A stretch of 64,000 nucleotides of DNA. Origin: Ignavibacteriota bacterium (GTDB lineage: Bacteria > Bacteroidota > Ignavibacteria > SZUA-365). The stretch covers positions 1-64,000 of the forward strand of contig JACRFB010000016.1 of NCBI GenBank assembly GCA_016218045.1, read 5' to 3'. Below the pieces are notes generated by a model. It was not told where the DNA came from, did no database searches, and saw nothing but the letters and a program-made list of their open reading frames with translations. The position numbers and the translations under genes were made by a program. Below are positions 34,112-38,436 of the stretch, one piece after another; the stretch's first letter is position 1, and each line of letters opens with the position of its first letter.

Positions 34112-35194
34112 CTAGTTGCCCGAAATCAGGACGGGTGTCGCGAAGGAGGTCGCGCCGTTGCTGATGCGTAGGAAGTAGCGGCCGGCGGCAATCGTGCCCT
34201 GCGGAATCGAGACGGGAACCGTGTTGACACCGGGAACGAGCTCGTGTGAAGTGCTCTGACCGATGAGGCGGCCTGCGGGATCGATCACGTCAAGTGTGAC
34301 GGACATCGCCTGCTTTGCGCTGAAACGCGCGAAGAAGCTGCCCTGCGAGGGCTGAGGATACGTCTCGAGAAGGGTGAGGCCGTCGAAGCTCGGTGCGGGA
34401 CGATCGGTGCCCGACACGTTGCCGTCCACAACCGGGAGGATCATGACGTCGAGGTCGATCGGTGTGCCGCCGGTATTGATGATGGCGCCGAGGTTGCCGA
34501 CCGTGAGCTGGCCCTGTGCGTTCGGTACAAGGAAACAGGCGCGGTTCTGGCCCTTGCCGTCACCGTGCTGATTCGACCAGATCACAAAAAGATCGTCGCC
34601 CGTGGCGGCGCCGCGGCGGGTCTGTACCACTGCGACAAAGGGGCCGCTGACGTCCGTCGGGGCTTCCATTTCAACGTAGGTGAACACCTGCGATACTGTG
34701 CTCGTGTCGACGCCGTCCGTCATGAAACGGCCGGAACCGGCGAGCTGGCCGTTGGGCAATCCCGTTGCGGGATCGGCGGGCCAAATGATAGCGCGAAGTG
34801 TATCGGGTGTGACGGCGGGACGCGAGATGGCAACCGCGATGAGCACACCCGGCACGCGAGCCGAACCGCTGATCGGGAATTTCTGACCGATGAACAGGTA
34901 CAGGCCGTTCGAACCGATGACAGGGAGGGTGTTGTTGCTCGCATCACGGTACGAATAGATCATGAACCTCGTTGTGCGCTTGAAATGATCGTCGAGCGTG
35001 TCGAGGGCCAGAGGGGCAAAGGAACGCGACTGCGGCATGGCGTACGCAGGCAGACCATAGGCCGCCGCTTCCACCTGTGCAGTTCCGCTGATCACGCCGC
35101 CTGGCAGAGAGAAAGTTGGTGCAGAGGTCTGCTGCGCGCCCGCACTAACCGTCAACGCGGTGAGCAGTACTAAAAGCGAGGTAACTTTTTTCAT
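34112..35194 (-). CDS. T9SS type A sorting-domain secreted protein
   Basis: The 360-aa protein has a signal peptide (MKKVTSLLVLLTALTVSAGA), a ~250-residue passenger with no family that I recognise, and a C-terminal sorting domain (LLETYPQPSQGSFFARF, VTLDVIDPAGRLI, AAGRYFLRISNG). Start at 35194 is supported by GGAGAG 5 nt upstream and the signal peptide; the longer frame to 35284 is rejected. It has its own promoter element (TACATTTG) and terminator, so it is monocistronic and probably well expressed. Confidence 0.82.
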   Translation of the reverse strand: MKKVTSLLVLLTALTVSAGAQQTSAPTFSLPGGVISGTAQVEAAAYGLPAYAMPQSRSFAPLALDTLDDHFKRTTRFMIYSYRDASNNTLPVIGSNGLYLFIGQKFPISGSARVPGVLIAVAISRPAVTPDTLRAIIWPADPATGLPNGQLAGSGRFMTDGVDTSTVSQVFTYVEMEAPTDVSGPFVAVVQTRRGAATGDDLFVIWSNQHGDGKGQNRACFLVPNAQGQLTVGNLGAIINTGGTPIDLDVMILPVVDGNVSGTDRPAPSFDGLTLLETYPQPSQGSFFARFSAKQAMSVTLDVIDPAGRLIGQSTSHELVPGVNTVPVSIPQGTIAAGRYFLRISNGATSFATPVLISGN

Positions 35195-35264
35195 GAAACT
35201 CTCCGGTATGTGTGAGTTGCGTTGTGAGTCAGAGTTGGGAGGGACATGTCGAACTCGCAAGTTA

Positions 35265-35272
35265 CAAATGTA
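35265..35272 (-). promoter_or_regulatory. -7 promoter element (TACATTTG) for the T9SS gene
   Basis: TACATTTG on the minus strand is an exact TAnnTTTG match, about 70 nt before the start at 35194. TTCC lies about 19-20 nt upstream of it as a weak -33 element. Confidence 0.5.
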
Positions 35273-35412
35273 CAGAGAATGCACGTGAATTGGAACGCGC
35301 CTGTGTGCGACCGCGGCTTCGTTCTACTCTGCAACAGGCGCCCATCACGCGATGCAGCCCGTCTGTCACAAGTCGACGGTTGCCATGTCTTTACTCTGTC
35401 CCAGGATGATGC

Positions 35413-35979
35413 ATGAAAACTATCGGAGCACATACTGTCTTTCGCGCGTTCCGGAACAGAACCCCGGAAATCGAGGAGGCGTTCGCGGCCTTGTACGACG
35501 TTCATGCGCCGCGTGTGTATGCGTATATCCGGCATATTCTCGGGGCAGAACACGAGGCAGTCGACGATGTACTTCAGCACTGTTTCATTGGATTGTTCGA
35601 TCGGGCTCGCAACGGCATCGAAATTCACAACGTCCCCGCTTTCCTTTTCCGCGTCGCACGGAATCAATGTCTGAATGAACTTGCGAGGTCGCGGCGATAT
35701 GTTGGTGACGTGGAGACCATCGCTGGTCACGATCCTGAGGGTGTGTATGAAACCCGCGAGTTGGAAGAGCATGTGGAGCGTGCCATAGTGCGGTTACCGG
35801 GCCATATTCGTGAATCGCTGGTGCTGAAGGACCAACTCGGATTCACGTATGAGGAGATAGCGGAAATGACTGGATTGTCGATACCAAACGTCCGACAGCG
35901 TGTGAGTCGCGCACGACGCATGATCCGGAAGTTGCTGGCGCCGCTGCTGCTTGACCAATCTCGCAAGGCATCGTTATGA
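35413..35979 (+). CDS. ECF-type RNA polymerase sigma factor
   Basis: The 188-aa protein has sigma region 2 (residues about 20-92, ALYDVHAPRVYAYIRHIL, FLFRVARNQCLNELAR) and region 4 (about 120-178, LPGHIRESLVLKDQLG, YEEIAEMTGLSIPNVRQRV), without regions 1 or 3. It should direct transcription of an extracytoplasmic stress or envelope regulon. Its stop overlaps the start of the next gene (ATGA at 35976-35979), as expected for a sigma/anti-sigma pair. Confidence 0.92.
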   Translation: MKTIGAHTVFRAFRNRTPEIEEAFAALYDVHAPRVYAYIRHILGAEHEAVDDVLQHCFIGLFDRARNGIEIHNVPAFLFRVARNQCLNELARSRRYVGDVETIAGHDPEGVYETRELEEHVERAIVRLPGHIRESLVLKDQLGFTYEEIAEMTGLSIPNVRQRVSRARRMIRKLLAPLLLDQSRKASL

Positions 35980-37253
35980 ATGCCCATCCCGAATTCGACT
36001 GGTCGGCGGCGGTGGATGCGCTCCTCGATCGGGAATTATCCCCCGACATGCAGCAGCGCGTATATGCCGAACTCGCGGTGAACGAACAACTTCGCGATGA
36101 AATGCAGTGCACACTTGCTCTACGTGCAGTTCAAAGCAGGCCACTCCCACCGCCACCCTCCCAAGTAAAGTCGGCGGTATTGGAGGCCATCCGTCGTGTA
36201 CCCGCGTCCGGCATCACATCCGCACACCGCCCCTTTGTCTCGCCACACCGTTGGCTTTCCTGGATCGCGGGACTCGTTGTGGTGTTGGTAGGTGCGTCAC
36301 TGTTCTATCCATCGGATGCTCCGCGTACGCTTGCGCCGGCCGATACAAGTCAATCGCGTACAGAGCCGCGCACAGACACCGCGCACTCTCACGAGCGGAT
36401 TGCCGATAGATCAGCGTCCGATTCATCGTACGTCGCGCGCACACCAACCCGGGCAGCGCATGCGCCTGCACGGGATGGTGTTGAAGCGGCGTCGGGCATG
36501 TTCGCCGAAGCTCATGAAAAACTCGACACGAGGAGTGACACAAACTCCGCACGGAGCACCTCCATTATCGCACGCCGTAATGCCGCTGTACATCGCGATG
36601 GCACTGTCACCGTCGGACAACAAGATGTAATCGCGAAAGAACAAGCTCCCCTGCCGGTTCCTTCCCCTGTTCTCGATACACCGGGAGCCGCGTCTGATAG
36701 CGGCGGACGGGTTACTGCGAAGATCGATGGCATGGTGCCTACACAGACAGTCGTCCACTCTGGAGACGGCGACGTCGCGGTGGAACTCCGTATGTTCTCG
36801 ATGACCTCACAGCCGGCTCTCTCGAACCGATCTGCCAGTACACCTCCAGTCAACAATGTCGCGGTCGGGGCGTATTACCGCATTGAACAAAACGGATCGA
36901 TTGGTCTTGAATTGGGCCAGGAGTCGATCATGCAACGCTACGAGGTACTTTCCGGAGAGCGCACTCTCTCCATCGAGCAGCACTGGATCGCGATGTGGCT
37001 CGGCGTGGCGTACATGTACGAGTTCATACCGCTCGGCATCCTGATGAAAACACGGCCGTTTGTCCGTGTGATCGCCGCGGGCACCGCCTCGGGACCGATG
37101 GTACGTGGAACGGGTGGCTTTCGTATCCCCATTCTCGGGAACGTCTCCATGCGTATCGGGCTCGAAGGCACGCTCCTGCTCTACAGTCAGGATGGACGAG
37201 TGTTCCACACACGGAAGGCGGGTATTACCGCAGGTCTCACATTTGGAATGTGA
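35976..37253 (+). CDS. Predicted dual-membrane-spanning anti-sigma factor (Dma-like)
   Basis: The 425-aa protein starts with a ~85-residue helical cytoplasmic domain (DWSAAVDALLDRELSPDM, without a CxxC zinc motif), which resembles anti-sigma N-termini. One membrane helix follows (about 93-111, WLSWIAGLVVVLVGASLF). Residues about 112-265 are a long Ser/Thr/Arg/Ala/Asp-rich, probably disordered linker. Residues about 266-425 are alternating amphipathic strands (VAVGAYYRIEQ, IAMWLGVAYMYEF, AGITAGLTFGM) that look like an eight-strand outer-membrane barrel. This order matches the Dma anti-sigma factors known from Bacteroides thetaiotaomicron. It overlaps the sigma gene by 4 nt. The barrel call is from pattern only. 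Confidence 0.7.
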   Translation: MNAHPEFDWSAAVDALLDRELSPDMQQRVYAELAVNEQLRDEMQCTLALRAVQSRPLPPPPSQVKSAVLEAIRRVPASGITSAHRPFVSPHRWLSWIAGLVVVLVGASLFYPSDAPRTLAPADTSQSRTEPRTDTAHSHERIADRSASDSSYVARTPTRAAHAPARDGVEAASGMFAEAHEKLDTRSDTNSARSTSIIARRNAAVHRDGTVTVGQQDVIAKEQAPLPVPSPVLDTPGAASDSGGRVTAKIDGMVPTQTVVHSGDGDVAVELRMFSMTSQPALSNRSASTPPVNNVAVGAYYRIEQNGSIGLELGQESIMQRYEVLSGERTLSIEQHWIAMWLGVAYMYEFIPLGILMKTRPFVRVIAAGTASGPMVRGTGGFRIPILGNVSMRIGLEGTLLLYSQDGRVFHTRKAGITAGLTFGM

Positions 37254-37263
37254 TTCTCACATC

Positions 37264-38436
37264 ATGAAGAAAACAACCATCATCATGAAGGAAACAACCA
37301 TGCGACTGCTACTACTCACACTTGGAACGCTTCTCCTGGCTGTCGCTGCGTGCAAAACACCCACGGAAGTGGATGCGGATCGACAGGTCACAGGTGTCAC
37401 CACCACGAACCCCGCGGCTCTCATTGTTGAAGGAGGACAGCTCGGACCAGTTCCCGTCAAGGATCGTCGCCGCTTCGACATCATCCTTCGCAACACCTCC
37501 GACAAGGAATTGCTCCGTATCAATACGCTCCGTATCCAAGACTCGACGGGAAGTTTTACACTTGTATCGACTATCAATCCTGTCACTCTCGACCTTGCAG
37601 GGGCCGCGCATTGCACTTTGCCCGTCTCCTGCGAGTTCGTCTCGAACACCATCGGCGCTTTCGCCGCCAAGGTCATCGTGAATGAAGCAGTGCACACATC
37701 GTTGACAATTGCCGCGGTCGCCGTGGGGTCGGCGATAGACACGGTGCTCCCCACACCATCCAATCCCATCGTGCTTCCTGTGCCGGGCCAACCGGTCATC
37801 TATCGGGGCCTGGTGATTGGAGAAACGTACGCGCATACATTCATCCTGAAGAACAACGACGCGGACTCGTACCTCCACATCCAACCGTCAGTTACCGGAG
37901 CCGATGCGACCTCTTTCGTGGTATATCCGGACTCGATCACCGGTGCGACGGACTACTTCCTCGCCCCGGCCGGTCAAAGCGGATCGGAGTGTACTGTGAA
38001 AATCGGTTTCTCACCTCTCGCGGTCGGTTGGCATCAGGCGGAACTGCAGCTCGGGGGTACCGCGACCAACGTGATGACTCTCCGCGGGCGCGGGTATAGC
38101 GGACGCGTGCTGCTTGTGGTTCCGAAAGCACAATCCATCGCTGTGGGACAAACACTCGACATCCCGCTCGAAATCTGGAACCTTTCCCAGTCGACTGCCA
38201 CCGTGAGCAACATCGGAGGGCAGCATGTACAATCTGTTCCCGCGAATCTCATGAGAGTCGATAACGTGAACCTTCCGCTCATGCTTGCCCCCGCGCAGAA
38301 ATGTGCGTTTTTGTACCGGTATTCGCCGACGGCAACAGGCGGCGACACGCTTCGGTTCGATGCAACGGTGTTTGTCGATCCCGCCGTGCTGGATGATGTG
38401 TACGACAAGGTGGTGCGCGTGACCATCACGCCGTGA
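37264..38436 (+). CDS. Lipoprotein with choice-of-anchor-D/ASH-like beta domains
   Basis: The 390-aa protein has a lipoprotein signal with LLAVAAC as the lipobox, then two or three immunoglobulin-like beta domains resembling the choice-of-anchor D/ASH type: RFDIILRNTSDKELLRI, HTFILKNNDADSYLHI, VKIGFSPLAVGWHQAELQL. Such domains occur in secreted and cell-surface proteins. It starts 10 nt after the anti-sigma stop, so it is probably the third gene of that operon and perhaps a ligand or partner of the barrel domain (inference). In-frame ATGs at 37285 and 37300 are possible starts. Confidence 0.72.
   Translation: MKKTTIIMKETTMRLLLLTLGTLLLAVAACKTPTEVDADRQVTGVTTTNPAALIVEGGQLGPVPVKDRRRFDIILRNTSDKELLRINTLRIQDSTGSFTLVSTINPVTLDLAGAAHCTLPVSCEFVSNTIGAFAAKVIVNEAVHTSLTIAAVAVGSAIDTVLPTPSNPIVLPVPGQPVIYRGLVIGETYAHTFILKNNDADSYLHIQPSVTGADATSFVVYPDSITGATDYFLAPAGQSGSECTVKIGFSPLAVGWHQAELQLGGTATNVMTLRGRGYSGRVLLVVPKAQSIAVGQTLDIPLEIWNLSQSTATVSNIGGQHVQSVPANLMRVDNVNLPLMLAPAQKCAFLYRYSPTATGGDTLRFDATVFVDPAVLDDVYDKVVRVTITP

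Follow-up and report, generated by a model that had tools for sequence, protein, structure and literature searches.

The window, that is, the whole 64,000-nucleotide stretch of DNA that was analysed, contains a three-gene operon on the forward strand. The first gene (35413..35979) encodes an ECF sigma factor of 188 residues, matched in Pfam by Sigma70_r2 (E 6e-11) and Sigma70_r4 (r4_2; E 1e-12), which falls within a 54-member clade of cassette sigma factors, apart from the Das sigmas. The second gene (35976..37253) overlaps the first by ATGA and encodes a protein of 425 residues with no significant Pfam or NCBIfam match, designated here a barrel-tipped anti-sigma factor from its homologs and an AF2 model. 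After a gap of 10 nt, the third gene (37264..38436, ATG at 37264 and stop ending at 38436) encodes a lipoprotein of 390 residues with the lipobox AVAAC and with choice-of-anchor-D/Ig-like domains (choice_anch_D in NCBIfam, 2e-12; Cep192_D4 and HYDIN-type Ig domains in Pfam). Gene trio, overlap, gap, sigma factor identity and Ig-like domains had all been read correctly by a first-pass annotation made from the sequence alone. The product of the divergent neighbour (34112-35284, reverse strand) is a secreted protein whose tail weakly resembles a T9SS type A sorting signal (TIGR04183, E 1e-4, slightly short of the cut-off).

In the AF2 model, residues 1-80 of the anti-sigma protein (35976..36215, forward strand, as all features given below for this protein) form a four-helix, class-I-like anti-sigma domain (helices 9-17, 23-35, 37-54 and 62-73). 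The domain is zinc-less, the motif Hx3Cx2C being absent from the protein; relatives give weak matches to RseA_N and zf-HC2, below the cut-offs. An inner-membrane helix (residues 93-109, 36252..36302) is indicated by both hydropathy (1.97) and AF2, and is followed by a tether (residues 110-264, 36303..36767) that is disordered by composition and by a pLDDT of about 30 and has a contour length of about 56 nm. The C-terminal residues 267-424 (36774..37247) are predicted to form eight antiparallel strands closed into an outer-membrane β-barrel. The first-pass annotation had foreseen this succession of helical domain, membrane helix, disordered linker and strand-rich C-terminus. It had also placed an aromatic residue near the C-terminus, which holds for a Phe at position -3, but the last residue itself is Met; the anti-sigma proteins of most relatives end in Phe.

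The model was computed for the window protein on an alignment with nine named relatives, only 10 sequences in all, and has a whole-model pTM of 0.40; within the barrel, the pLDDT means over 10 residues are about 66-94, with a single loop block lower, at 42. Searched against the PDB with Foldseek, the window protein aligns with the eight-stranded outer-membrane barrels NspA (TM 0.62), OprF (barrel, 0.59) and OmpA (0.50-0.56), and a second family member with a designed eight-stranded transmembrane barrel (0.77), OprF (0.70) and NspA (0.59). Among the relatives the tether ranges from 104 to 258 residues, while the C-terminal domain is constant at about 157. With a periplasm of ordinary width as the yardstick, all of these tethers could therefore cross it.

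How widespread is this layout? The window's own genome carries three paralogs of the anti-sigma protein, and homologs are present in 18 of 41 related genomes; given these homologs, in which the C-terminal unit stays constant while the linker varies, the layout is not a chance arrangement. A profile search over 296 genomes of the phylum gave matches in 112. Among the matches listed, all those that reach the barrel belong to the window's own class, and in other classes the N-terminal part alone matches. An ECF sigma gene lies upstream of the anti-sigma gene at 53 distinct loci, and the trio of sigma factor, anti-sigma factor and lipoprotein is widespread in the window's class. Most of the relatives that have a name are MAGs of uncultured Ignavibacteria/Bacteroidetes, and the bacteria that carry the layout are Kapabacteria/Ignavibacteria-like. 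One contig labelled Ectothiorhodospiraceae (L055, PABJ01000193.1) also bears a cassette of the window type, and its public label looks wrong.

As for the third gene, a lipoprotein gene comes directly after the anti-sigma gene in 50 of 52 non-identical loci (47 recognised by filter and L005, L075 and L083 read from the sequences); in the remaining two, L004 and L012, no lipoprotein was seen downstream of the anti-sigma gene. The earlier suggestion that the lipoprotein is a partner of the anti-sigma factor is thereby strengthened, and its involvement is likely. The lipoprotein bodies are unrelated to one another, with choice-of-anchor-D Ig-like domains in the window and VWA, DUF5122-propeller or unassigned bodies elsewhere. 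Most of them share a tag, C-x-[ST]-P-[LTI]-[DE]-x-[DE]-T-P-R, straight after the signal peptide; its consensus, C-x-[ST]-P-L-D-x-D-T-P-R, begins at the lipidated cysteine and is common to the Ig-like, VWA, DUF5122-propeller and unassigned bodies. The window lipoprotein carries a diverged version, CKTPTEVDADR (37351..37383, forward strand; compare C-x-S-P-L-D-x-D-T-P-R). At the DNA level, the tag pattern has seven matches in 41 whole genomes; six immediately follow the gene for a barrel anti-sigma factor. Its reversed control has none. The seventh match (L044, G002:C9:90068-90099), the only one with no known gene of this kind beside it, could be due to chance or to an orphan lipoprotein. The post-lipid tag is a candidate docking signal for the barrel, a contact suggested by genetic linkage and by the shared motif.

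Upstream of the operon lies a candidate ECF promoter, TCTGTCAC-N16-TGTCTTTACT (35362..35395, forward strand), found with a weight matrix built from the other cassettes. Its -35 element is TGTCAC (35364-35369), which deviates from the consensus TGTAAC, and its -10 element is TGTCTT (35386-35391). The two-block motif TGTAAC-N16-TGT(T/C) precedes the sigma gene in 43 of 46 cassettes, the window included (leave-one-out matrix), and the form GTAAC-N17-GTTA occurs in 24 of 51 upstream regions, a few of them near-copies, against at most 4 in shuffles. The window site has a leave-one-out score of 9.9; among its own shuffled versions, the 95th percentile is 5.7 (p=0.017). The full matrix, to which the site itself contributes, ranks it first over both strands of the 64-kb window (15.4, next 10.0).

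A strict version of this promoter, GTAACNTT-N13-TGTTA, has 25 matches in 11 related genomes versus 4 for the control. Nine of the 25 are the cassettes themselves; of the 16 that remain, 15 lie upstream of a gene whose product starts with a signal-like segment; these non-cassette genes include VWA, FG-GAP-type repeat, repeat lipoprotein and PKD-like proteins (names assigned by eye, VWA excepted). A second promoter form, GAAACAA-N13-GTGTC, matches mostly the cassettes. In the window's own genome neither the strict promoter nor targets bearing it were found. A regulon there is putative; given that surface proteins are among the targets in relatives, the window sigma factor may control the divergent gene 34112-35284. 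In one genome (G004), the sensor lipoprotein and a secreted protein encoded behind the promoter have VWA domains with 46% identity over 168 residues; since VWA paralogs may be numerous in this genome, mimicry between the two is a lead rather than a finding. The same genome encodes three FG-GAP-like secreted proteins (L178, L179 and L180) with an identical promoter, GTAACTTTTCGGTGTCTCATGTGTTA, which suggests recent duplication together with the promoter. Behind the cassette promoter in related genomes are also found lipoproteins built of repeated VTVKDPxGxPVxGAxVRVWK-type units (L185, L187, L188 and L191), which keep CC and NCDPYxKT motifs.

Taken together, the operon probably forms an outer-membrane-to-cytoplasm signalling unit composed of sigma factor, barrel-tipped anti-sigma factor and lipoprotein sensor. 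The four-helix domain would hold the ECF sigma factor, the single helix would anchor the protein in the inner membrane and the disordered tether would cross the periplasm to a barrel that sits in the outer membrane, beside or encircling the tag at the N-terminus of its companion lipoprotein. Sensing would be the task of the lipoprotein's variable body. A change at the outer membrane (the lipoprotein engaged, missing or misplaced, or the barrel itself disturbed) would alter the barrel, and the signal may then pass down the tether by tension or proteolysis to free the sigma factor. Once freed, the sigma factor would transcribe its own operon and, in relatives, also genes for secreted and surface proteins. 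We infer from this a self-inducing switch for surface proteins that is gated by the lipoprotein.

The layout is that of the Dma proteins of Bacteroidales, in which an anti-sigma domain, one transmembrane helix, a disordered tether and a C-terminal outer-membrane barrel are likewise encoded next to an ECF sigma gene, and Dma2 also sits in a three-gene operon. In Bacteroides and Phocaeicola, proteins of this architecture have been shown to be anti-sigma factors for the neighbouring sigma gene (PMC13088901, PMC9308784). Is the window protein then a true, very diverged member of Dma/Das (ECF21), inherited from a common Bacteroidota ancestor? The identical domain order speaks for it, as do the lipoprotein gene often found downstream in Bacteroidales Dma operons and the shared phylum (by database classification; the class is different). 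For the comparison, Bacteroidales Dma proteins were reached via NigD genes, since nigD is described as lying near ecfO-reo and as belonging to its regulon (PMC9308784, PMC13114119); the set was then extended to 16 sequences. The barrel family PF13568 is found in all 16 and in none of 28 window-type proteins, and hhalign gave homology probabilities of 1.4% (whole proteins), 4.9% (barrels) and 2.8% (N-domains), with self controls at 100%. Undetectable similarity is not proof of separate origin in small barrels, and the sigma factors were therefore used as a second line of evidence. In a tree whose bootstrap had not fully settled, the Das sigmas form one clade (100/98) and the cassette sigmas another (96/79; 53 plus one near relative), and a single clade of both is rejected (p-AU 2.9e-6). 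Moreover, the sigma factor of the window's own genome that is sister to the Das/ECF21 clade (L145:4199-5403, reverse strand) is paired with an ordinary anti-sigma factor of 201 residues. Common ancestry with Dma is accordingly unlikely. The first-pass annotation was right about the Dma-like layout, but its proposal that the trio extends the family does not stand, and filing under Dma/ECF21 was rejected. A second doubt concerns the C-terminus, which could be a soluble periplasmic β-domain, in which case the protein would be an ordinary anti-sigma factor of the RseA type with an extended sensor in the periplasm. Some strands alternate weakly, and sequence-level matches to outer-membrane proteins are essentially absent (one of the 28 weakly matches OMP_b-brl). 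A soluble domain is nonetheless improbable, given that the top listed PDB matches of two members are nearly all outer-membrane barrels, with the eight-stranded ones aligning best, that linkers are long in all members and that the C-terminal unit keeps its length and, mostly, its final Phe.

What the barrel reads is the point on which a rival account carries more weight, being a real contender while still rather unlikely. The lipoprotein could be an effector, i.e., a product of the regulon, its tag could serve for sorting or export to the surface, and the barrel could sense general outer-membrane or LPS damage. In Bacteroidales, both the NigD lipoproteins and BT_1557 act like members of the regulon, and deleting bt_1557 leaves the vesiculation phenotype unchanged (PMC13088901, PMC13114119), while Reo has been proposed to sense outer-membrane stress (PMC13114119). 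Against this, the tag hardly occurs outside genes that follow a barrel anti-sigma gene, whereas a general export signal would not be so confined, and paralogous cassettes combine a constant barrel with differing lipoprotein bodies, as one would expect if the sensors were exchangeable. The lipoprotein as sensor, docked to the barrel by its tag, is the reading that we retain.

Other known systems resemble parts of the window system. For EcfO-Reo (Bacteroides/Phocaeicola), too, it has been proposed that the anti-sigma factor reaches through all compartments and reacts to outer-membrane stress, and the regulon likewise includes surface lipoproteins (NigD) (PMC9308784, PMC13114119); this anti-sigma factor belongs to the Dma lineage, whereas window-type lipoproteins are encoded after the anti-sigma gene, mostly with a common post-lipid tag. 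The class I anti-sigma domains of RseA, RskA, ChrR and RsiW share the four-helix N-terminal fold, for which a zinc motif is not needed (PMC7406223), but are joined to a periplasmic or cytoplasmic sensor half instead of a tethered outer-membrane barrel. Compared with Dma itself, barrel and N-domain are without detectable homology, the sigma factor lies outside ECF21/Das and the partner lipoproteins are different. For a lipoprotein sensor associated with outer-membrane barrel partners, a model is RcsF of Escherichia coli, whose proteins and output are different, so that the likeness is an analogy only.

On the simplest reading, two different sigma/anti-sigma lineages were each joined to a barrel. 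The window-type system is apparently a second, independently assembled class beside Dma, and, judging from the sequence comparisons, the same wiring probably arose twice. More tentatively, and with slightly less than an even chance in our estimation, anti-sigma signalling from outer membrane to cytoplasm by a single protein has two or more independent origins within Bacteroidota and is modular here, with a constant barrel that reads interchangeable surface lipoproteins through a short, conserved post-lipid tag, and with some sensor bodies that imitate domains found in the secreted proteins under their control. Dma/Reo, a recently described curiosity confined to Bacteroidia, would then be a recurrent design. 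For barrel-tipped anti-sigma factors there are now candidates for partner, docking tag, promoter and regulon, and with conserved partner, tag and promoter in hand, how such a protein senses the cell surface becomes testable.

Two minor observations concern the Dma side of the comparison. The N-terminus of the 201-residue anti-sigma factor at L145 resembles that of Dma. Among the Bacteroidales Dma operons, a downstream lipoprotein is found at L101, L103, L105, L106, L110 and L111; at L105 and L106 it has 430 residues and starts with C-x-D-x-x-Y-E-E-x-T-Y-x-A-N-V-P-V, perhaps an analogous tag.
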